41,989 nt of DNA from a virus. A program made the translations under genes and the position numbers. Below are positions 1,957 through 16,558 of this stretch, piece by piece. The DNA lies in IMG/VR virus record IMGVR_UViG_3300010400_000014, positions 1 to 41,989 of that record. One strand, given 5' to 3'. The notes beneath the pieces were generated by a model that was given only the letters and a program-made list of their open reading frames with translations, was not told the origin of the DNA and did no database searches. Numbering within the stretch: position 1 is the first letter of the stretch; every line of letters starts with the position of its first letter.

Positions 1957-2130
1957 ATGCCACCATGCCACCTCATGCCACCTTTTTGGCATTTTCGTAA
2001 CTGCGTACACGTGATCTCATATACATGTATACATATACGTAAAAAGGTGGCATAGGTGGCATATGTGTAGGTGGCTCAATAATATCCACCTCAGTCACGA
2101 GGTGGCATGCATGCCACCTTAAGGTGGTGT
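1957..2130. repeat. Octamer array with dyad symmetry (candidate origin or control region)
   Basis: Seven exact copies of GGTGGCAT or its complement lie in 162 bp. ATGCCACC occurs at 1957, 1965, 1975 and 2111; GGTGGCAT occurs at 2046, 2055 and 2101. Degenerate copies are at 2070 and 2123. The left cluster points one way and the centre-right copies the other, flanking an AT-rich stretch (1993-2045) that holds the palindrome TATACATGTATA (2020-2031). Copies at 2101 and 2111 form a perfect 20-bp palindrome (2100-2119) abutting the vapE-like stop codon. The arrangement resembles iterons around an unwinding element. A role in late-gene control or termination is also possible. Confidence 0.8.
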
Positions 2131-3270
2131 CCAGAATTTACGCATCCGGTCGCGTTTCCATTGGGCATGCCGGAGGATACGCGCGACACGCATTTGGCTG
2201 GTTTTATCGAGTTTGTCTGGCGTGAATTTGAGGGGGCCCAGCAAGATGTCCTTGACGAACACGGACGGCGATGTGAGCACGTAGTGCTGTGCCCAATCCA
2301 GCACGAGTGAGGCCCATTCATCATGCTGGTGGCGAGCGGCCTGCTCCGTTTGCGTAATCGCCGGCATCTCCCACCAGGTCGCCCCGCGCTGAAAGAGCAT
2401 CACCGCTTCCGCGAACAGTTGGGATCGTGCGGCCGTGAGCGACGCCAAATTGATGGCGCCGCATTGGATGGGCCAGAATCGGCGCCCGCCCGTTTCGTCG
2501 GTCAGCCAATCATCATGGTTCGTCGTGCCGGCGAACACACATTGGCGAGGAATGTCAATCGTGCGTCGCCCATAACTGGCGCGATAGGTGTCCGACGTGC
2601 GAGACAACATCCCCTTCACGTGTGCGCTTTCCGTCTTGGAAAAAGCATTCAATTCACAGAGTTCGATGACCCATTTTCCGCGTAAGGCTTGCAGGAAATC
2701 CTTCGAGGCCGCGGATTCATCGAGCGCGCAGAACCACTCGCCGCCCACAACAGCAAGCGCGCTGGATTTAAAGATGCCCTGCTCCCCTTCGAACACCGGC
2801 ATCGTGTCGCATTTGCAACCGGGGCACAGCACGCGCGCCACGAGACTGAGAAAGAAATTGCGGCTGGCCGCGCGGACATAATCGCTCGGTTGCCGATCGG
2901 CGCCCCAGTGATCTTCGAAGGCTAAATCAATGCGCGAGATCCCGTCCCAGACCAGCGAGAGCAACCATTCCCGCACGACATGCCGCCCCCGTCGTCGAGC
3001 CACGAGATCCACGGCATCGGCGACGAGATGCTTCGTAATGCGCGTGAGTCCCGTCGTGTCCTGCAGGTAGACAGTCAAGGCGACATCGTCATCATCGCGC
3101 CACTCCCGCGGCGCGGAATTCGTCACGATGATGCGCCCCGTAAATTCATCGAAATAGAGATGCGCTGCATCCCAGAGCGGATCGTGTTCCAACACGCGCA
3201 CGGCGTTCGTCAGCGTTTGGTAGGGAGGCTTCCCGAGTCCTGGTGCATCGAGAATCGCGCCCCAATTCAC
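2119..3270 (-). CDS. VapE-type P-loop ATPase / replication helicase
   Basis: A 383-residue protein of the virulence-associated E family, which in phages and mobile elements usually acts as the replicative helicase or primase-helicase. Walker A is EGEQGIFKSS (161-170), with Phe replacing the usual Gly before Lys. A Walker B-like strand is WVIELCEL (200-207). The family signature continues with AHVKGMLSR (about 216-224), TTN (249-251) and GGRRFWPI (261-268). No primase domain precedes it. The GTG start at 3270 overlaps the upstream stop. It is the last gene of the leftward early operon, next to the octamer array. Confidence 0.88.
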   Translation of the reverse strand: MNWGAILDAPGLGKPPYQTLTNAVRVLEHDPLWDAAHLYFDEFTGRIIVTNSAPREWRDDDDVALTVYLQDTTGLTRITKHLVADAVDLVARRRGRHVVREWLLSLVWDGISRIDLAFEDHWGADRQPSDYVRAASRNFFLSLVARVLCPGCKCDTMPVFEGEQGIFKSSALAVVGGEWFCALDESAASKDFLQALRGKWVIELCELNAFSKTESAHVKGMLSRTSDTYRASYGRRTIDIPRQCVFAGTTNHDDWLTDETGGRRFWPIQCGAINLASLTAARSQLFAEAVMLFQRGATWWEMPAITQTEQAARHQHDEWASLVLDWAQHYVLTSPSVFVKDILLGPLKFTPDKLDKTSQMRVARILRHAQWKRDRMRKFWTPP

Positions 3271-5801: not shown

Positions 5802-5837
5802 CTACGCATTGTAACGCGTTCCGTAACGCGTTTTCAA
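5802..5837 (-). promoter_or_regulatory. Candidate promoter with tandem GTAACGCGTT repeats
   Basis: On the minus strand TTGAAA (5837-5832) and TACAAT (5813-5808) are separated by 18 nt, and the ATG of the HNH gene follows TACAAT after only 6 nt, so the transcript would be essentially leaderless. The spacer holds two direct copies of GTAACGCGTT (plus strand, 5811-5820 and 5823-5832), each containing the palindrome AACGCGTT. These look like a tandem operator. The -35 overlaps the stop codon of the helicase gene. Confidence 0.55.
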
Positions 5838-7219
5838 GCCGTTCTTCGGTGCGCCTTCGCGCGCTGACTCATGTGCCAGGCCCAGCCTGCGCGATACCCA
5901 AGCATCTTCGCCAGCGCCTGCCACTGCGCCAGCGTCTGACACTGCCCGTAGAATTCCTGCCGCCGTTCACGTAGTGCCCGCAGCGCCGCCGCATCGGTTT
6001 CCTGCAGCACGCCCTCGACCTGCTGCACCTGGCGCGCCTTCACCTCGAACGCTGCGCCACAGTAGGCACACACCCGCGACGAGGACCGGGACACCCCGAA
6101 GCAGACTGGACAGCGACGCACACCCAGCACTCCTTCTCGGCTCTTCGAAGACGAAGCACCCGTCAGCGACCACTGTCGGGAATCATCGGGCAACCCGTGT
6201 CGCTCCCAGTGGCCGGCATGGTCAAAAATTCGCACGACAGCCTTACCTGCGGCCGGCCGCAAACCTCGACCAACTTGCTGGAGATATAGACCCAGCGATT
6301 GTGTTGGCCGCAGAAGGAACAACCCGTCAACGGCTGGCACGTCCAATCCTTCGCTGAAAAGATCCACGCTACATAACACTCGCACGGTTCCATTCCTGAA
6401 CTCCTTCATCGCGTGTGCGCGCTCGGCCTTCGGTGTATCACCATCGACATGCTGAGCCGCGATCCCTGCCGCCACGAACGACGCCGCCATCTGCCGTGAC
6501 GCATCCAGATTCCACGCGAACACCAGCGCGCGTCCGCCCGCGCAGTGCTGGCGATAGTGCGCGAGCGCATCGCCGACCACGCTGCTCTGTTGCATCGCGC
6601 CGGCGAGTTCGCGCTTGTTGTAGTCGCCAGCTACGCGATGCACGCCTGAGAGATTCGCCGCCGAGGGCGCATAGAACTTGTAGGCGCTCAGCCAGCCTTG
6701 CGCGATGAGGTCGGCCGTCGTCGGGCCTTCAACGGGCGCGTCGAAGTAGGCACCGAGGCCGCGCCCGTCGAGGCGCTGTGGCGTGGCCGTGAGGCCGATG
6801 TGGACGGCGGACGGGAACTGCTGCGCGAGCGCGGCCCAACTTTTACTCGCAAGATGATGACATTCGTCCCACACACACACGTCAGGACTCGTGAGATGAC
6901 GTGCTCGCCGTTCCAGAGATGGGACACTGCACACCTGCACGGGAGCAAGTGGCGAGGCTGGATAGCCTGCCGCAACCACGCCGGTGTGAATATCAGCCGT
7001 TTCGATGAAGGTTTCAACGCTTTGCTCCAGTAATTCTTTGCGGTGAACGAGGAACCAGGCGCGCTTGCCACGGGCGGCCGCGCTCGCGAGCATCTGTGCG
7101 ACCAGCACAGTCTTACCGCTCCCGGTCGGACACTGGATCAGGATCCGTCGCACGCCCTGCCGCATGAGGGCGCGGGTGCGCTCGAGAAGATCGATCTGAT
7201 AGTCACGCAACTGAATCAT
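5834..7219 (-). CDS. RadD-like superfamily 2 DNA helicase
   Basis: A 461-residue DEAD/DEAH-family ATPase. ATG 7219 overlaps the methyltransferase stop (ATGA). It shows a Q-motif-like RDYQ (5-8), Walker A PTGSGKT (31-37), DECHH (118-122), TATP in motif III and QQVGRGLRP as motif VI. After the helicase core comes a four-cysteine zinc module (CPVC then CAYC). This architecture resembles bacterial RadD (YejH), which acts with SSB and RecA in recombinational repair. It sits between the cytosine methyltransferase and the HNH/VRR-NUC genes, consistent with a DNA-processing role. Confidence 0.85.
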   Translation of the reverse strand: MIQLRDYQIDLLERTRALMRQGVRRILIQCPTGSGKTVLVAQMLASAAARGKRAWFLVHRKELLEQSVETFIETADIHTGVVAAGYPASPLAPVQVCSVPSLERRARHLTSPDVCVWDECHHLASKSWAALAQQFPSAVHIGLTATPQRLDGRGLGAYFDAPVEGPTTADLIAQGWLSAYKFYAPSAANLSGVHRVAGDYNKRELAGAMQQSSVVGDALAHYRQHCAGGRALVFAWNLDASRQMAASFVAAGIAAQHVDGDTPKAERAHAMKEFRNGTVRVLCSVDLFSEGLDVPAVDGLFLLRPTQSLGLYLQQVGRGLRPAAGKAVVRIFDHAGHWERHGLPDDSRQWSLTGASSSKSREGVLGVRRCPVCFGVSRSSSRVCAYCGAAFEVKARQVQQVEGVLQETDAAALRALRERRQEFYGQCQTLAQWQALAKMLGYRAGWAWHMSQRAKAHRRTA

Positions 7220-8112
7220 GGCTTCCACGCCCGCGCAATCCAGCACGCCAGCGGCAATGGAATCTTCGCGATGTGCGCGGAGGCGGCTTTACGTGCCGTG
7301 CTCTTGCTGCTACTCCGCCGCGAGATCGATGGCTGTTCGGCGTTGAACCAATCACCACCTTGCTTGATGCCATCGCCTGCAAGTTGCATCTTCGCGGTGT
7401 CGCCGTAGTGCTTACTGCGCCAGCCTTCCGAGATGCACCGCCCATCCGGATTCTGCCCTGTGCCGCTCGTCGTGTTGTGCGCCACGTTGAACCAGGATCC
7501 GCCGTCGTTCTTTGTGGCCTTCACCGATGCCGACTGGAACGACTTGCCGGAACCATCGAAGCGGAAGCCGGGAACCTTCTCGCCGTCATCTTGGATTTGA
7601 TCCAAGTGAATCGCGCAGAACTGATTGCCTGTGCCGGGCTTCGGTCCTTTGCCTCGATGTCGCGTGATCGGCATCAACGCGGGCACATCGCCCCACAGGT
7701 AGAAACTGCCATAGTGCCAGCGAGCGCGCCCAACCCACTTCTGCGCCCCGCACACATTCTCCACCACCAACGGAATGTAGTGTCCTGCGGCCTCGCACGC
7801 CTCGCGCTGAATCCGAAAGCACGCGTTGAACAACGCATTGTCCGGCGGCGGGAGTGCCTTCGCACGCTTCCACGGCATCGCGCGATAGCTGTAGGCCTGA
7901 CACGGCGGCGAGGCCACGATCAGTGCGGCATCACGAAACTGTGCGCCGTGCAGCGTGAGCACGTCCTGTATCACGAGTTGCGCCGGATAGCGCGCGGAGC
8001 CGTAGACATGCTGCTCGTTGTCGAAGCCGACCACGCGATAGCCTTCTGCCAACAAGCCGTCCGTCCAGCCACCGAGCCCGCAGAACAGATCAATCCCGAG
8101 CGGCTGATTCAT
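7216..8112 (-). CDS. DNA cytosine-C5 methyltransferase
   Basis: A 298-residue Dcm-type enzyme that would transfer a methyl group from SAM to C5 of cytosine. Motif I is DLFCGLGG (8-15), motif IV PPC with catalytic Cys71 (SPPCQAYSY) and motif VI ENV (118-120). The middle (about 150-250) is Gly/Ser/Asn-rich, and a conventional motif IX-X end is hard to see, so the target-recognition part is atypical. No cognate restriction enzyme is adjacent. A host-defence evasion or regulatory role is likely. ATG at 8112, 20 nt after the upstream gene. Confidence 0.88.
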   Translation of the reverse strand: MNQPLGIDLFCGLGGWTDGLLAEGYRVVGFDNEQHVYGSARYPAQLVIQDVLTLHGAQFRDAALIVASPPCQAYSYRAMPWKRAKALPPPDNALFNACFRIQREACEAAGHYIPLVVENVCGAQKWVGRARWHYGSFYLWGDVPALMPITRHRGKGPKPGTGNQFCAIHLDQIQDDGEKVPGFRFDGSGKSFQSASVKATKNDGGSWFNVAHNTTSGTGQNPDGRCISEGWRSKHYGDTAKMQLAGDGIKQGGDWFNAEQPSISRRSSSKSTARKAASAHIAKIPLPLACWIARAWKP

Positions 8113-8820: not shown

Positions 8821-8849
8821 TTGACAGCGTTCCTGATGTTTGCTACAGT
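8821..8849 (+). promoter_or_regulatory. Rightward early promoter (leaderless)
   Basis: TTGACA (8821-8826), a 17-nt spacer and TGC-TACAGT (-10 at 8844-8849) form a near-consensus sigma70-type extended -10 promoter. The ATG of the first gene is at 8857, 7 nt after the -10, with no room for a ribosome site. The element GTTCCTGATGTTTGCTAC (8829-8846) matches the leftward promoter's copy in 15 of 18 positions, in inverted orientation. Confidence 0.88.
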
Positions 8850-9386: not shown

Positions 9387-9599
9387 CCGCGGCAAACTGC
9401 ACATTCGCGACGCGCACGAGGATTCCGTCCGCGTGTTGCTACGCACGGTCGCTGAACAGGAAGCCACGATCCGGCGACTCTCGGACGAGCATCAGCGCAT
9501 TGTGCGCGTGCTGACAGCGTTCAAGGCCGCGCCGATTTCGGTGTCGAGCGTGCAGCCGATTCTGGACCTGTGCGACGAACTGAGCAAGGAGCCAACACG

Positions 9600-9603
<4 letters not shown>
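9379..9603 (+). CDS. Small coiled-coil protein
   Basis: A 74-residue protein. ATG 9379 is preferred because AGGAG lies 6 nt upstream and the 8-nt overlap with the previous stop matches other junctions here. Residues about 16-50 form an amphipathic helix (VRVLLRTVAEQEATIRRL and onward). The function is unknown. It ends in ATGA with the Ala-repeat gene. Confidence 0.65.
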
Positions 9604-10354
<751 letters not shown>

Positions 10355-10358
<4 letters not shown>

Positions 10359-10770: not shown

Positions 10771-10800
10771 TTGACACGCGTAGCAGGCATCTGCTACAGT
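10771..10800 (+). promoter_or_regulatory. Internal early promoter with overlapping operator
   Basis: TTGACA (10771-10776), an 18-nt spacer and TGC-TACAGT (-10 at 10795-10800). Unlike the divergent pair it has a short leader carrying a strong ribosome site (GGAGGTGAGG) before ATG 10818. A perfect inverted repeat GTAGCA-N6-TGCTAC spans 10780-10797, covering the spacer and half of the -10. Binding there would block RNA polymerase. Confidence 0.88.
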
Positions 10801-11472: not shown

Positions 11473-11654
11473 CGCTGGTGGAGGCGCTTGCGTATCTCTT
11501 CGATGAATTCCATCTCGAAGACAAAGTCTACGACGTGCGCGCGCGTGCCGTGGAAAACGGCGAGCCGTTCGAGGGGAATAGTTGGGACCATCCAGCCGTG
11601 CTGAAGTTCAGTGAGGCGTGCCAAACCCTCAAGGAGTGGAGGCGGCAACAGTGA
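11469..11654 (+). CDS. Small hypothetical protein
   Basis: A 61-residue frame with GTG at 11469, ending in a GTGA overlap with the exonuclease fusion. Composition looks protein-like (FDEFHLEDKVYDVRA, then SWDHPAVLKFSEACQTLKEW). The same frame stays open upstream through a coiled-coil-like stretch (IAQLEAQIVTLTAERD) but offers no good start there. The N-terminus may therefore be longer or the gene may be frameshifted near 11365-11400. Confidence 0.5.
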   Translation: MTLVEALAYLFDEFHLEDKVYDVRARAVENGEPFEGNSWDHPAVLKFSEACQTLKEWRRQQ

Positions 11655-13303
11655 GCGCCAGTATTCTGCTGATCGATTTATCGTCCATCCTGCACCGTGA
11701 GTGGCACACATCCGGCAACGACCCAAATCCGGATGCGACCAGCATGAAAACCGTGGAGCGCGTGCGAGCACTCGCCGGCGATCGGCGCAGTGGCGTCGCC
11801 ATCGCGCTGGACAGCCCGCCGTATCTGCGCAAACAAGTGGATCCGGCCTACAAAGCGCAGCGCGACAAAGAGAACAACGCCGTCATCGCGCATCAGATGG
11901 CGCTGGCGGCCGACACGTTGCGCGCGGACGGCTTTCCGGTCTGGGGCATGACGGGCTATGAGGCAGACGACGTGATCGCCTCAGCCACTCGCTGCGCCTT
12001 CAGCCTCGTCGATGGGGTCTACAACGGCACCGTCACGATTGCCAGCGCCGACAAGGATCTCCTACAGCTTGTCAACGACCGCGTGAGTTTTCATTCCGTC
12101 ACCAGTGGCAACTCACTCACGCCAGATGATGTGAAAGCGAAGTTCGGCGTGTGGCCGCACCAGATGCGCGATTACCTGTGCTTAGTCGGCGACAGCAGCG
12201 ACAACATCCAAGGCGCGAAGGGCATCGGCCAGAAGCGAGCCGCCGAGATTCTTGAGGTGTTCGGCCACCTCGAAGATGCCTACCGCGCACTGGACGAAGG
12301 CACGGTGGTGCTCTCGCCGGCCATCACGAAATCGCTACAGGACTTCGGCACACGCCTCACCACCGTGCGCGAGCTCGTCAGCCTCAAGACGGATGTGCCG
12401 CTGCCGTTCGACGAGGTGTTTCGCGAGCGGGTGCCGGCGGATATCGCGGTCTTCGGAGAGGAAAGAGCTGAGATGGAGCACCACGAGAGTCGCAGCCCGG
12501 ATGGTGACGGGCATTCCCAATCCGCTGGTGAAGTCACGGGAGAAGCGGGACGCCTGCCGGACGAGGCGCAAGCGATGAATGCTGGGCGCCCAGTTGGTTC
12601 ATCGCGGGCTGAAGTTAAACGTGACGCAGCCGGGTCAGAACCGGCCGACTCTCATCAAACGGCCCCGCACGCAGGCCCAGAGCCCCCCAGAACGACGAAC
12701 GGGCAGGCATCCTCATCTCAGCCTGCCTCAGCACCGCCGCGCATCCTAGAGCCTGAAGTGCTGCCGCCGCCCGCCCTGGACCCGAGATGGCAACTCGAGC
12801 CGCGGAGCATGGCGCAAGCCAAGCAGGTGGCGGCCGACTTGTTCGCGAGCCGGATGTTTTCGGCCTACGGCAATGCCCCGGCCGTGCTCAGCACGATCAT
12901 GGCGGGCCGGGAACTCGGCTTTCAGACGATGGCTTCGTTGCGGGCCATCCACATCATCGACAGCAAGCCCGCGCTCTCGGCCGGGGCCATTCACTCGTTG
13001 GTGCTGACGAGCGGCAAGGCGAAGTATTTTCGGTGCGTGGAACGCACGTCTGAGCGCGCTACGTTCGAAACCCAGCGTGGCGAGGATCCGCCCGTGTCGC
13101 TGTCGTTCAGCATCGAAGAGGGGCGACAAGCGTGGAACGGCAAGCGCGATGACAAGGGCGAGCCGGACGCGAAATCCTGGGCGGCCAGCGGCTGGGGACG
13201 TAATCCGGCTGATATGCTCGTGGCGCGCGCACTCACTAAGCTCGCTCGCCTTGTCTATCCCGACATCACACACGGGCTATACGCGCCCGAGGAACTCGGC
13301 TGA
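11651..13303 (+). CDS. Fused 5'-3' exonuclease (FEN-type) and RecT-like annealing protein
   Basis: A 550-residue two-domain protein. GTG 11651 overlaps the upstream stop. Residues 1-270 are a FEN/PolA-type 5' nuclease with every acidic ligand group visible: Asp9, Asp54 (IALDSPPYLRK), Glu104/Asp106/Asp107 (GYEADD), Asp134/Asp136 (SADKD), Asp181/Asp184 (GDSSDN), plus the helix-hairpin-helix (GAKGIGQKRA, 188-197). A Pro/Ser/Ala-rich linker covers about 272-378. Residues 380-550 match phage RecT-like single-strand annealing proteins (RSMAQAKQVAADLF, GRELGFQTMASLRAIHII, then DMLVARALTKLARLVYPD). This joins resection and annealing in one chain, functionally analogous to lambda Exo/Beta. A weak internal start (ATG 12473) might also release the second domain. 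Confidence 0.85.
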   Translation: MSASILLIDLSSILHREWHTSGNDPNPDATSMKTVERVRALAGDRRSGVAIALDSPPYLRKQVDPAYKAQRDKENNAVIAHQMALAADTLRADGFPVWGMTGYEADDVIASATRCAFSLVDGVYNGTVTIASADKDLLQLVNDRVSFHSVTSGNSLTPDDVKAKFGVWPHQMRDYLCLVGDSSDNIQGAKGIGQKRAAEILEVFGHLEDAYRALDEGTVVLSPAITKSLQDFGTRLTTVRELVSLKTDVPLPFDEVFRERVPADIAVFGEERAEMEHHESRSPDGDGHSQSAGEVTGEAGRLPDEAQAMNAGRPVGSSRAEVKRDAAGSEPADSHQTAPHAGPEPPRTTNGQASSSQPASAPPRILEPEVLPPPALDPRWQLEPRSMAQAKQVAADLFASRMFSAYGNAPAVLSTIMAGRELGFQTMASLRAIHIIDSKPALSAGAIHSLVLTSGKAKYFRCVERTSERATFETQRGEDPPVSLSFSIEEGRQAWNGKRDDKGEPDAKSWAASGWGRNPADMLVARALTKLARLVYPDITHGLYAPEELG

Positions 13304-13304
13304 G

Positions 13305-13661
13305 ATGAGCCTGAGGCGGTGCGATAAGTGCGGTAGAGAAGCCAAGCGAGCCATTGGCGATCTAGAACACCACTACGGTTGGATATTCACGATTGTCGGC
13401 ACGGAACTCATTGCAAAATGCGGTGATTGCAACCGCAAAGGAGCACAGCCCATGAATCTCCCGGACATCGAAACAGTTGCCGACAAAGCGCACGAAGCCT
13501 GGATGGCGAGCAAGAAAGCGCAGGGCGTGACCTCGCGCAAAGCCGAAGACGGCGAAGAACTGATGGTGCCCTACGCGCAATTATCCGAGAAGGCGAAGGA
13601 TCTGGATCGCGGCATGATCACGGCAGTCTATGCGGCCATCCGCGCTGCGAGTCACGACTGA
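13305..13661 (+). CDS. Zinc-ribbon protein with RyR-like domain
   Basis: A 118-residue protein starting at ATG 13305, two nt after the previous stop. The N-terminal part carries CDKCG (6-10) and CGDC (39-42), a zinc ribbon. The C-terminal 65 residues match the RyR domain seen in phage and bacterial proteins: HEAWMASKKAQGV (56-68), MVPYAQLSEKAKDLDRGMI. RyR domains are proposed to bind nucleotide-like ligands in anti-phage signalling and have phage-encoded relatives. ATG 13452, with AAAGGAG 8 nt upstream, could start the RyR part separately. Confidence 0.75.
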   Translation: MSLRRCDKCGREAKRAIGDLEHHYGWIFTIVGTELIAKCGDCNRKGAQPMNLPDIETVADKAHEAWMASKKAQGVTSRKAEDGEELMVPYAQLSEKAKDLDRGMITAVYAAIRAASHD

Positions 13662-14137
13662 TGGCCGTTACCACCGACCAGATGTATCAGGTGTTCCAAT
13701 CCATCGACGCCAGCCTGAAGTTACTTGTGGCGCATTTCGGCTGCACGGCGCAGCGTGTCGGTGGACCAGGCGCGCCATTTACGCCGCCGCGCATCGCCTC
13801 CGATGCGGACCTCGACGGCAAATACGGCGATCCGGCGATTCGAGCCAAAGACCCACGCGACTGGACCGGGGACAGCATGCTGGGACGGCCCTATAGTGAC
13901 TGTCCACCGGAATATCTGGAGATGGTCGCCGACCGGCTCGATTATTTCAATTCGCTGCTCGGAGACAGCGCAGACGACCAGAAAAAGCGGAAGTATCAGA
14001 GCCTCGATGCGGCGCGCGCCAGAGGCTGGGCGCAACGCAAGCGCAATGGCTGGCAGCCGCCGCCCGAAGACAGCAGCAGTGCGTTTCCGAGTGACAACAC
14101 ACCGTCGCCACTGACCGACGACGATGTGCCTTTCTGA
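13661..14137 (+). CDS. Putative ssDNA-metabolism protein with SSB-like C-terminal tip
   Basis: A 158-residue protein (one-base overlap, TGATG). The last residues TDDDVPF match the acidic tip of bacterial SSB (consensus DDDIPF), which docks repair and replication proteins. The preceding region (about 130-150) is Pro/Ser-rich and disordered, as in SSB. The central domain (ADLDGKYGDPAIRAKDPRDW, then YLEMVADRLDYF) is a conserved type in phages but I see no OB-fold signature. It may recruit host SSB-interacting proteins to phage DNA, or be a divergent SSB partner. Confidence 0.7.
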   Translation: MAVTTDQMYQVFQSIDASLKLLVAHFGCTAQRVGGPGAPFTPPRIASDADLDGKYGDPAIRAKDPRDWTGDSMLGRPYSDCPPEYLEMVADRLDYFNSLLGDSADDQKKRKYQSLDAARARGWAQRKRNGWQPPPEDSSSAFPSDNTPSPLTDDDVPF

Positions 14138-14509: not shown

Positions 14510-14522
14510 GGGCACGCTGTGA
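14346..14522 (+). CDS. Small helical hypothetical protein
   Basis: A 58-residue protein from ATG 14346, with GGAGG 11 nt upstream. Two amphipathic helices (LRDILKRLESID; QRALADLRLDIERYL) flank a CMRC pair. It ends in GTGA overlap with the endonuclease VII gene, the normal junction type here, which supports this frame over the overlapping one. The function is unknown. Confidence 0.55.
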   Translation: MTLRDILKRLESIDTISTWAYCMRCWSQVPASDSDQQRALADLRLDIERYLLKTEGTL

Positions 14523-14959
14523 GCAAGCGCATTCCGTCAACGCTCGAGCGGCGGCGCGTGCAATCACGCGAGTGGTATCACCGCAACAAGAAGCGAGTCG
14601 GCGAGAAGAGACGGAAGCGGTATCGGACCGATAAGGCATGGCGAGAATATCAGAGGTTCCGCCGAATCGAATACGCTAACAGGAACGGAGCGCTGTGGGC
14701 CAGAGCTAAGAAATACGGCCTAGAACAAGACGAGCTAGAGTTGATGCTGGACCGTGGTTGCCAGATTTGCGGAGCCTCTGGCGATTACGTCACGCTGCAT
14801 GTCGATCACGACCATGAAACTGGACACACGCGCGGTATCCTCTGCGAGCATTGCAACTTCGGCGTGGGCAAGTTCTATAACGATCCGATGTTGCTGATCG
14901 CGGCGGCCGATTACCTCACGCGAGACAGCCTGTCGAGACTGCCCAATGCAGACGTATAG
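14519..14959 (+). CDS. Endonuclease VII-type Holliday-junction resolvase
   Basis: A 146-residue protein starting at GTG (GTGA). The C-terminal half fits the T4 gp49/recombination endonuclease VII family: zinc pairs CQIC (81-84) and CEHC (109-112), and the catalytic VDHDHETGHTRGILC (95-109), then GVGKFYNDPMLLIAAADYL. The first 65 residues are very basic and likely bind DNA. It would cut branched DNA before packaging or during recombination, fitting the neighbouring exonuclease/annealase. Confidence 0.9.
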   Translation: MSKRIPSTLERRRVQSREWYHRNKKRVGEKRRKRYRTDKAWREYQRFRRIEYANRNGALWARAKKYGLEQDELELMLDRGCQICGASGDYVTLHVDHDHETGHTRGILCEHCNFGVGKFYNDPMLLIAAADYLTRDSLSRLPNADV

Positions 14960-16244
14960 CGAGTTCATCGCTTCGAAGGTTCGGCGTGTGAACGACCTCG
15001 GTTTACGGATTGACGCCTCGGTATTGCCGTCGCAACTGTTCGACTGGCAGACACAAATCGTGCAATGGGCTCTCAGGAAAGGCAGCGCAGCTATCTGGGC
15101 GGATTGTGGCCTTGGGAAAACCGCGATGCAGTTAGCATGGGCGGATCACATCCCTGGGCGCGTGTTGATCTTGGCGCCTTTGTGCGTGGCTGAGCAATCG
15201 GTTGCGGAAGGACTCAAGTTCGGCATTGAGGTGCATTATGCACGTGGGCAAGGCGGTGCAGGCGACCACCGCATTGTGATCACGAATTACGAGATGCTTG
15301 ACCGTTTCGACGTCACGCAATTCGCTGGCGTTGTGCTGGATGAAGCATCGATCTTGAAGAGCTTCGAAGGCAAGATCAGGACTGCGCTGATTAAGACGTT
15401 CGCTCGAACAAAGTATCGGCTCTGTTGCACGGCGACCCCGAGCCCGAATGATATCGCCGAGCTCGCCAACCATGCGGAGTTTCTGGGTCTGATGACGCGC
15501 CAGGAGTTTCTCGCGACGTGGTTTGTGCATGATGATCAAGGCTGGCGGATGAAGGGCCACGCCGTGCAGCCGTTCTATCGCTGGTTGGCGAGCTGGGCGA
15601 TTGCGATGCGCAAGCCGTCCGATATCGGCTACGACGATACCGGTTATGAATTGCCGCCGCTCACGATTACGGATCATGTGGTCGAAGGCGGCGATCCGGG
15701 CGGCGTGCTGTTTCCCGAACTCGGCCTGAAAGGCATTACGGGCCGCCAGAAGGCGCGACGGGCCAGCATCGAGGATAGATGCAAGAAGGTCGTTGAACTC
15801 GTGAAGTCGGCTGTCAGCGACCAATGGATTCTGTGGTGCGGTCTGAACGCCGAATCCGACGCGCTCGGCGAGTTGGCTGGGGCCGTGAACGTGCAAGGCA
15901 GCGACAGTTACGAGAAGAAGCGTGCGGCCGTGCTTGGTTTCGTCAGTGGTAAACACAATATCCTTGTCAGTAAAAGCAAGATCGTTGGATTCGGTTTGAA
16001 TTTCCAGCACTGCCATCACATGGCGTTTGTCGGCATCGGCGACAGTTATGAGCAGTATTACCAGATGATTCGCCGCTGCTGGCGGTTCGGGCAACAGCAT
16101 CCGGTGGACGCACACATCGTGGTCAGCAACAGCGAGCGCGCCATTGTCAGTAACGTGCGACGCAAGCAAGCCGATGCCGACGAGATGGCGCGGCAACTGC
16201 TGGTGCATATGAGGGAGTTCGAGCGAGAGGAGTTGGCATCATGA
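14946..16244 (+). CDS. SNF2-family DNA helicase/translocase
   Basis: A 432-residue superfamily 2 ATPase overlapping the endonuclease VII gene by 14 nt. Walker A is ADCGLGKTA (52-60), motif II DEAS (132-135) and motif III TATPSPND (162-169). The C-terminal lobe includes VSKSKIVGFGLNFQ and motif VI QMIRRCWRFGQ. Compact SNF2 proteins of this kind are common in phages and are often next to a DNA methyltransferase, as here. The usual inference is DNA remodelling or displacement of bound proteins. Confidence 0.9.
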   Translation: MQTYSEFIASKVRRVNDLGLRIDASVLPSQLFDWQTQIVQWALRKGSAAIWADCGLGKTAMQLAWADHIPGRVLILAPLCVAEQSVAEGLKFGIEVHYARGQGGAGDHRIVITNYEMLDRFDVTQFAGVVLDEASILKSFEGKIRTALIKTFARTKYRLCCTATPSPNDIAELANHAEFLGLMTRQEFLATWFVHDDQGWRMKGHAVQPFYRWLASWAIAMRKPSDIGYDDTGYELPPLTITDHVVEGGDPGGVLFPELGLKGITGRQKARRASIEDRCKKVVELVKSAVSDQWILWCGLNAESDALGELAGAVNVQGSDSYEKKRAAVLGFVSGKHNILVSKSKIVGFGLNFQHCHHMAFVGIGDSYEQYYQMIRRCWRFGQQHPVDAHIVVSNSERAIVSNVRRKQADADEMARQLLVHMREFEREELAS

Positions 16245-16558
16245 ACTACGATTTAAGCGATTTCCTGCTGAACTATGTATTCGCCCAACGGCTCTGGTCG
16301 TCTGAAACGTTCGGCCCGGGCCGTCGCACGCTGGGCATCACTGCGCACATCCGAAAAGAGCTGGCCGAAATCGAAGCCGACCCGGACGATGTGCGCGAGT
16401 GGATCGATTTAGTCATCCTAGCATTCGACGGATTTTGGCGTCATGGCGGAAAACCTGAAGAGCTTGCGGAAATGCTCGAAGCCAAACAACGCATCAATTT
16501 CGAGAGAAACTGGCCGCCCATACAGCCGCAGGACCACCCAACGGAGCATCTCAAGTGA
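16241..16558 (+). CDS. DUF550/MazG-like dNTP pyrophosphohydrolase
   Basis: A 105-residue protein (ATGA). The sequence FGPGRRTLGITAHIRKELAE (about 24-43), then EADPDDVREWIDLVILAFDG, matches the DUF550 family annotated as dATP/dGTP pyrophosphohydrolase, an all-alpha MazG-like fold. The EEx-type acidic residues KELAEIEAD and EWIDL would bind Mg2+. It could cleanse or rebalance the nucleotide pool or counter alarmone signalling. It is co-transcribed with the SNF2 helicase and methyltransferase. Confidence 0.85.
   Translation: MNYDLSDFLLNYVFAQRLWSSETFGPGRRTLGITAHIRKELAEIEADPDDVREWIDLVILAFDGFWRHGGKPEELAEMLEAKQRINFERNWPPIQPQDHPTEHLK

Follow-up and report, generated by a model that had tools for sequence, protein, structure and literature searches.

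A single gene in the window, the whole 41,989-nucleotide stretch of viral DNA that was analysed, encodes a FEN-type 5'-nuclease of the PolA family joined in one polypeptide to a RecT/Redbeta-type annealase core (Table 1). With a probability of roughly 0.55, this protein would act as a one-chain single-strand-annealing recombinase in which resection by the FEN domain precedes annealing. In such a reaction sequence, the FEN domain would remove the 5'-ended strand at ends, nicks or gaps of the phage DNA; the tethered annealase cores would then assemble on the 3' strand left behind and anneal it to a complementary strand. The covalent tether would thereby stand in for the C-terminal domain (CTD) that mediates exonuclease docking in lambda Redbeta, and a direct hand-over of resected strands to the annealing domain, which had been proposed in the first-pass annotation, is plausible.

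Table 1. Positions of the fusion gene, its parts and further features of the window.
Feature	Position	Strand	Description or basis
FEN-RecT fusion gene	11651..13303	+	550 aa, GTG start; one open frame ending in stop
FEN / PolA-type 5'-nuclease domain	11651..12412	+	residues 1-254; Pfam, NCBIfam, Foldseek, metal ligands
Disordered linker	12440..12790	+	residues 264-380; pLDDT <50
RecT/Redbeta-type annealase core, without C-terminal domain	12785..13300	+	residues 379-550; PHROGs, model, PDB matches
GGAGG ribosome-binding-like sequence	11638..11642	+	sequence; 8 nt 5' of fusion GTG
Small conserved partner gene	13661..14137	+	homologues near fusion; acidic tail ends DDVPF
Promoter-like TTGACA/TACAGT pairs	10771..10800 (N18), 8821-8849 (spacing 17)	+	2 window matches
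VapE-type helicase/primase-like gene	2119-3270	-	Pfam/PHROGs profile searches
Helicase-like gene	5834-7246	-	
Helicase-like gene	14946-16244	+	
Endonuclease VII gene	14519-14959	+	

The first-pass annotation had placed both domains in one uninterrupted frame, and all 550 codons are indeed open. The GTG start overlaps the TGA of the preceding gene. Further upstream, the TTGACA/TACAGT pair was found twice in the window and not once in 100 shuffles; judged from its sequence, the copy closer to the fusion gene is a possible promoter of the operon to which this gene belongs. The same upstream region contains an alanine-rich tandem array with 9-, 21- and 30-bp units (CGCCGCCGC) at 10061-10244, within the frame 9570-10358 on the plus strand.

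Further fusions were searched for in IMG/VR with the protein, with an alignment of the fusions, and with an alignment of the C-terminal halves, while GTDB genomes were covered by one scan. At least 58 other contigs, mostly viral, encode both domains in one frame, so that the architecture described for the window is present elsewhere, and many of the proteins are less than 50% identical to that of the window. Chance or a merge of two adjacent genes by assembly or frameshift is ruled out as the origin of the frame because the same in-frame fusion recurs in these 58 contigs from separate assemblies, which leaves a negligible probability for an artefact. Two of the 58 contigs have been binned as bacterial MAGs, namely L016 (Thermoanaerobaculia) and L017 (Myxococcota, JAICYS010000010.1); these are possibly a hint at the hosts, or virus contigs that were binned together with bacteria. 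None of the isolate phage and plasmid records covers 80% of the fusion query, and split FEN and RecT genes were not found in relatives. A protein of an uncultured Caudovirales phage (BFVD/UniProt A0A6J5MUB0, 462 aa) aligns over both domains with 36% identity (E 1.1e-43) and belongs to the same family. Its only name is 'PIN_53EXO domain containing protein', in which the annealase half is not mentioned.

Profile searches with the N-terminal half identified both Pfam domains of 5'-3' exonucleases above their curated cut-offs: 5_3_exonuc_N (PF02739) at residues 5-166 (E 1e-24, 87.5 bits vs. a cut-off of 34.3) and 5_3_exonuc (PF01367) at residues 167-254 (E 1e-20, 74.4 bits vs. 40). PolA models of NCBIfam match residues 5-254 (8.5e-47). 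The full-length AlphaFold2 model, which was calculated from an alignment of 11 rows, consists of two confidently predicted domains and a low-confidence region at residues 264-380. In Foldseek searches this model matched ExoIX (4e-18), T5 FEN (2e-15), and also the FEN of M. smegmatis, which assigns a FEN fold to the first domain. The full set of FEN metal ligands reported in the first-pass annotation is present: the acidic ligands of both metal sites correspond to D9, D54, E104, D106, D107, D134, D136, D181, and D184, and all nine are invariant among the 56 or 57 fused sequences that cover the respective position. The same applies to R60, K68, and R71 (56 or 57 sequences). The nuclease is not a relic, since the metal ligands and these three basic residues have been kept without exception, and it is predicted from the ligand set to be a catalytically complete 5'-nuclease. 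Fold and complete ligand set are shared with the 5'-nuclease domain of PolA, with ExoIX (Xni), and with T5 FEN. In those proteins a polymerase domain or nothing follows the nuclease, while in the fusion the FEN domain precedes an annealase. PolA-type 5'-nucleases favour flaps and nicks over blunt ends, and strong end resection by the fusion is therefore not a given.

For the C-terminal half, the claim of a RecT-like annealing domain could be confirmed with profiles, with a predicted structure, and with PDB matches. Residues 386-550 match the RecT-like PHROGs 4171 (1e-12) and 561 (5e-11). The profile search was thus positive with PHROGs but not with Pfam, as RecT (PF03837) reached only E 0.007 and 16.3 bits in the window protein and remained below the gathering cut-off of 24, a score that delimits a search and is not a biological trait. 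Among 25 family members, 21 match this Pfam family at E<=0.1, the best one with 2.6e-9. When the C-terminal half was modelled separately from a 25-row alignment, a mean pLDDT of 94 was obtained. Redbeta (7ujl; 4.8e-4, probability 1.00) and LiRecT (7ub2; 0.017, probability 0.99) were the best two matches of this model, and there was no other convincing match among 350,542 PDB chains. Redbeta 7ujl was also matched by the full-length model (7e-4, Foldseek) and was picked up among PDB sequences by the sequence profile of the C-terminal half (0.0019). In the predicted structure, helices are followed by a beta hairpin, a three-stranded sheet, a helical hairpin, and a long last helix, in agreement with the description of the LiRecT core (PMC9772228). 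R533 is invariant in the fused sequences, and no one-to-one counterparts of the contact lysines of LiRecT and Redbeta were identified. Redbeta K154 and the LiRecT contact lysines could not be equated with a single conserved position, as the basic residue at position 526 is not strictly conserved and moves by one position between subclades. Sequence profiles and modelling together point to a RecT/Redbeta-type annealase core, which would be expected to anneal complementary strands.

Both domains are connected by a linker that ranges from 35 to 199 aa among fused members. Pairwise dN/dS values are mostly well below 1 in the FEN domain (0.06-0.47) and in the annealase (0.02-0.19), and those of the linker are usually above both; all of these values are rough, as several dS values are near saturation. 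The two halves can differ strongly in their relatedness. L213 and L214 share 99% identity in the annealase and 53% in the FEN domain, and in the pair L104 and L222 the FEN domains are 96% and the annealases 82% identical. This unequal identity suggests that sequence has been exchanged inside the fusion gene, across the linker, which may serve as a hinge for the swapping of modules.

The annealase core is located at the very C-terminus of the fusion. In the 56 fused contigs with complete ends, it is followed by 0-11 aa; in 25 complete stand-alone relatives, 60-217 aa follow. The corresponding region has been studied in lambda Redbeta: the C-terminally truncated protein anneals DNA and forms filaments, but it cannot recombine (PMC5052646). 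K253 in the CTD is required for the binding of SSB, with K214 probably belonging to the same interface (PMC8303780). Interaction with the exonuclease partner is named as a function of the CTD in the title of a paper by Smith and Bell (2016; cited in PMC7496540). In the simplest reading, a covalently attached FEN domain would have made the docking domain unnecessary. Since the fusion looks like one event, the loss of the CTD counts as one coincidence and not as 56 independent ones.

Stand-alone relatives differ from the fusion also in the nuclease that accompanies them. A homologous annealase core is present in the stand-alone RecT-like proteins of three isolate phages, namely Thermobifida phage P1312, Gordonia phage Howe, and Microbacterium phage Antuna; in contrast to the fusion, these proteins have a C-terminal extension of 60-156 aa and a separate nuclease gene upstream. 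This gene encodes a DUF3799 nuclease in P1312 and Howe and a YqaJ nuclease in Antuna, and it is located directly upstream of recT in P1312 and Antuna and one gene away in Howe. A YqaJ gene is also found just upstream of the stand-alone recT of the viral contig L245, while no PD-(D/E)XK nuclease was recognised upstream of recT in the other stand-alone viral contigs and in a Salinibacter phage. In phages of Firmicutes, recT is known to occur together with YqaJ or DUF3799 (PMC8093625). No FEN match was found near the stand-alone relatives, and neither YqaJ nor DUF3799 nucleases were found in 16 records of fused phages, some of which may be fragments. Because the nuclease of the three isolate phages is of the PD-(D/E)XK type and YqaJ and DUF3799 are missing from the fused records, the gene content suggests that the FEN domain took over from a PD-(D/E)XK resection enzyme.

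Phylogenetic analyses of both halves gave a consistent picture. The annealase tree, which comprises 80 cores, places the fused members to one side of one branch (support 93/86; recovered in 96% of bootstrap trees, with the bootstrap not fully settled), and the FEN tree, with 99 domains, does likewise (SH-aLRT 99). Each half thus seems to form one clade, as would be consistent with a single old fusion event. The closest cellular FEN domains among the sampled best hits form the N-terminal part of full-length PolA proteins, and Myxococcota are the source of many of these.

Downstream of the fusion, a second conserved gene was identified. Of the 24 fused loci examined, 13 have a homologue of this small partner gene close to the fusion. 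The gene was found in nine of ten near relatives, the window counted among them, and the tenth is represented by a 28-kb fragment. It was found neither in six distant fused records nor in three phages with stand-alone RecT, and searches with the protein in Pfam, PHROGs, NCBIfam, and the isolate-phage collection gave no match. Its acidic C-terminus, DDVPF in the window and DDIPF, EIPF, or SIPF in others, resembles the tip of bacterial SSB. A canonical SSB gene is present in only one of 16 records, and this record does not contain the partner gene. One may guess that the partner protein substitutes for SSB. Between the fusion and the partner gene, positions 13305-13661 on the plus strand encode a small protein that contains CxxC-type motifs and matches the RyR domain (PF02026, 1.2e-6). 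A gene of the dATP/dGTP pyrophosphohydrolase family (PF04447) is located further downstream on the same strand (16241-16558). This gene raised the question of a modified, 2-aminoadenine-containing genome, which was rejected as a search of the window and of eight relatives gave no PurZ-type gene (PF00709).

Two other functions of the fusion have to be weighed against resection as its main task. The annealase could pair single-stranded DNA first, e.g. on the lagging strand, after which 5' flaps or primers at the joint would be removed by the FEN domain tethered to it. This order of events fits the close relationship of the FEN half to the 5'-nuclease domain of PolA, a flap and nick-translation nuclease, and a flexible linker of 35-199 aa would allow the FEN domain to reach joints beside an annealase filament. 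Its standing is weakened by the recombination exonucleases of the PD-(D/E)XK type that are encoded upstream of stand-alone recT in isolate phages, and by the lack of YqaJ and DUF3799 in the fused records, from which the FEN domain appears as the substitute for a resection enzyme. Trimming after annealing is accordingly regarded as the less likely order, albeit one that deserves serious consideration.

It is rather improbable that the fusion is mainly a replication protein, in which the FEN domain would remove primers and the RecT-like half would act in DNA binding or recruitment and take no part in recombination. The PolA-like character of the nuclease and the rarity of canonical SSB genes would agree with such a function, as would the lack of polymerases: family A and B polymerases were not found in the window, just as the first-pass annotation had stated, and both are absent from 15 related viral records, which may be fragments. 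A PolA match in a 17th record belongs to a cellular MAG. The further suggestion that the fusion might be the core of replication found no support. A VapE-type helicase is encoded in the window, and the replication genes differ between fused phages, VapE being limited to 3 of 17 records and DnaB to 2 of 16, although these absences weigh little as records may be fragmentary. The fusion stays while replication genes vary, so a recombination enzyme fits better than a replication core; moreover, the complete core fold of an annealase has been kept in the C-terminal half. Phages with the fusion are more likely to use the polymerase of their host.

Taken together with the partner gene, a resecting one-chain recombinase leads to a broader and more tentative proposal, to which somewhat less than even odds are given: a PolA-type 5'-nuclease would have been captured and tethered to an annealase without CTD, its linkage replacing docking, and together with the small protein carrying an SSB-like tip it would represent an ancient family of single-chain recombinases.

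The combination of a 5'-3' nuclease with a RecT/Redbeta-type annealase is known from lambda Exo/Redbeta and RecE/RecT, as are the individual parts. Unlike in these two-gene systems, nuclease and annealase form one polypeptide, the nuclease is of the FEN type instead of the PD-(D/E)XK type, and the annealase does not have the C-terminal domain that docks exonuclease and SSB. The contrast to Exo/Beta and RecE/RecT drawn in the first-pass annotation, including the different nuclease fold, therefore holds, and the new aspects are the union in one chain, the FEN type of the nuclease, and the absence of a CTD. No published description of a FEN-annealase fusion was found in the open-access literature, including reviews; proteins of this type are already deposited in public databases, and no sign that they had been recognised as fusions was found in that literature.

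For lambda Red, it has long been asked whether the exonuclease has to pass its product physically to the annealase. A natural one-chain family without docking domain makes this hand-over testable, and the fusion is a possible single-gene enzyme for recombineering. For proteins that have so far been named only after their nuclease half, the reading as a fusion supplies a function.
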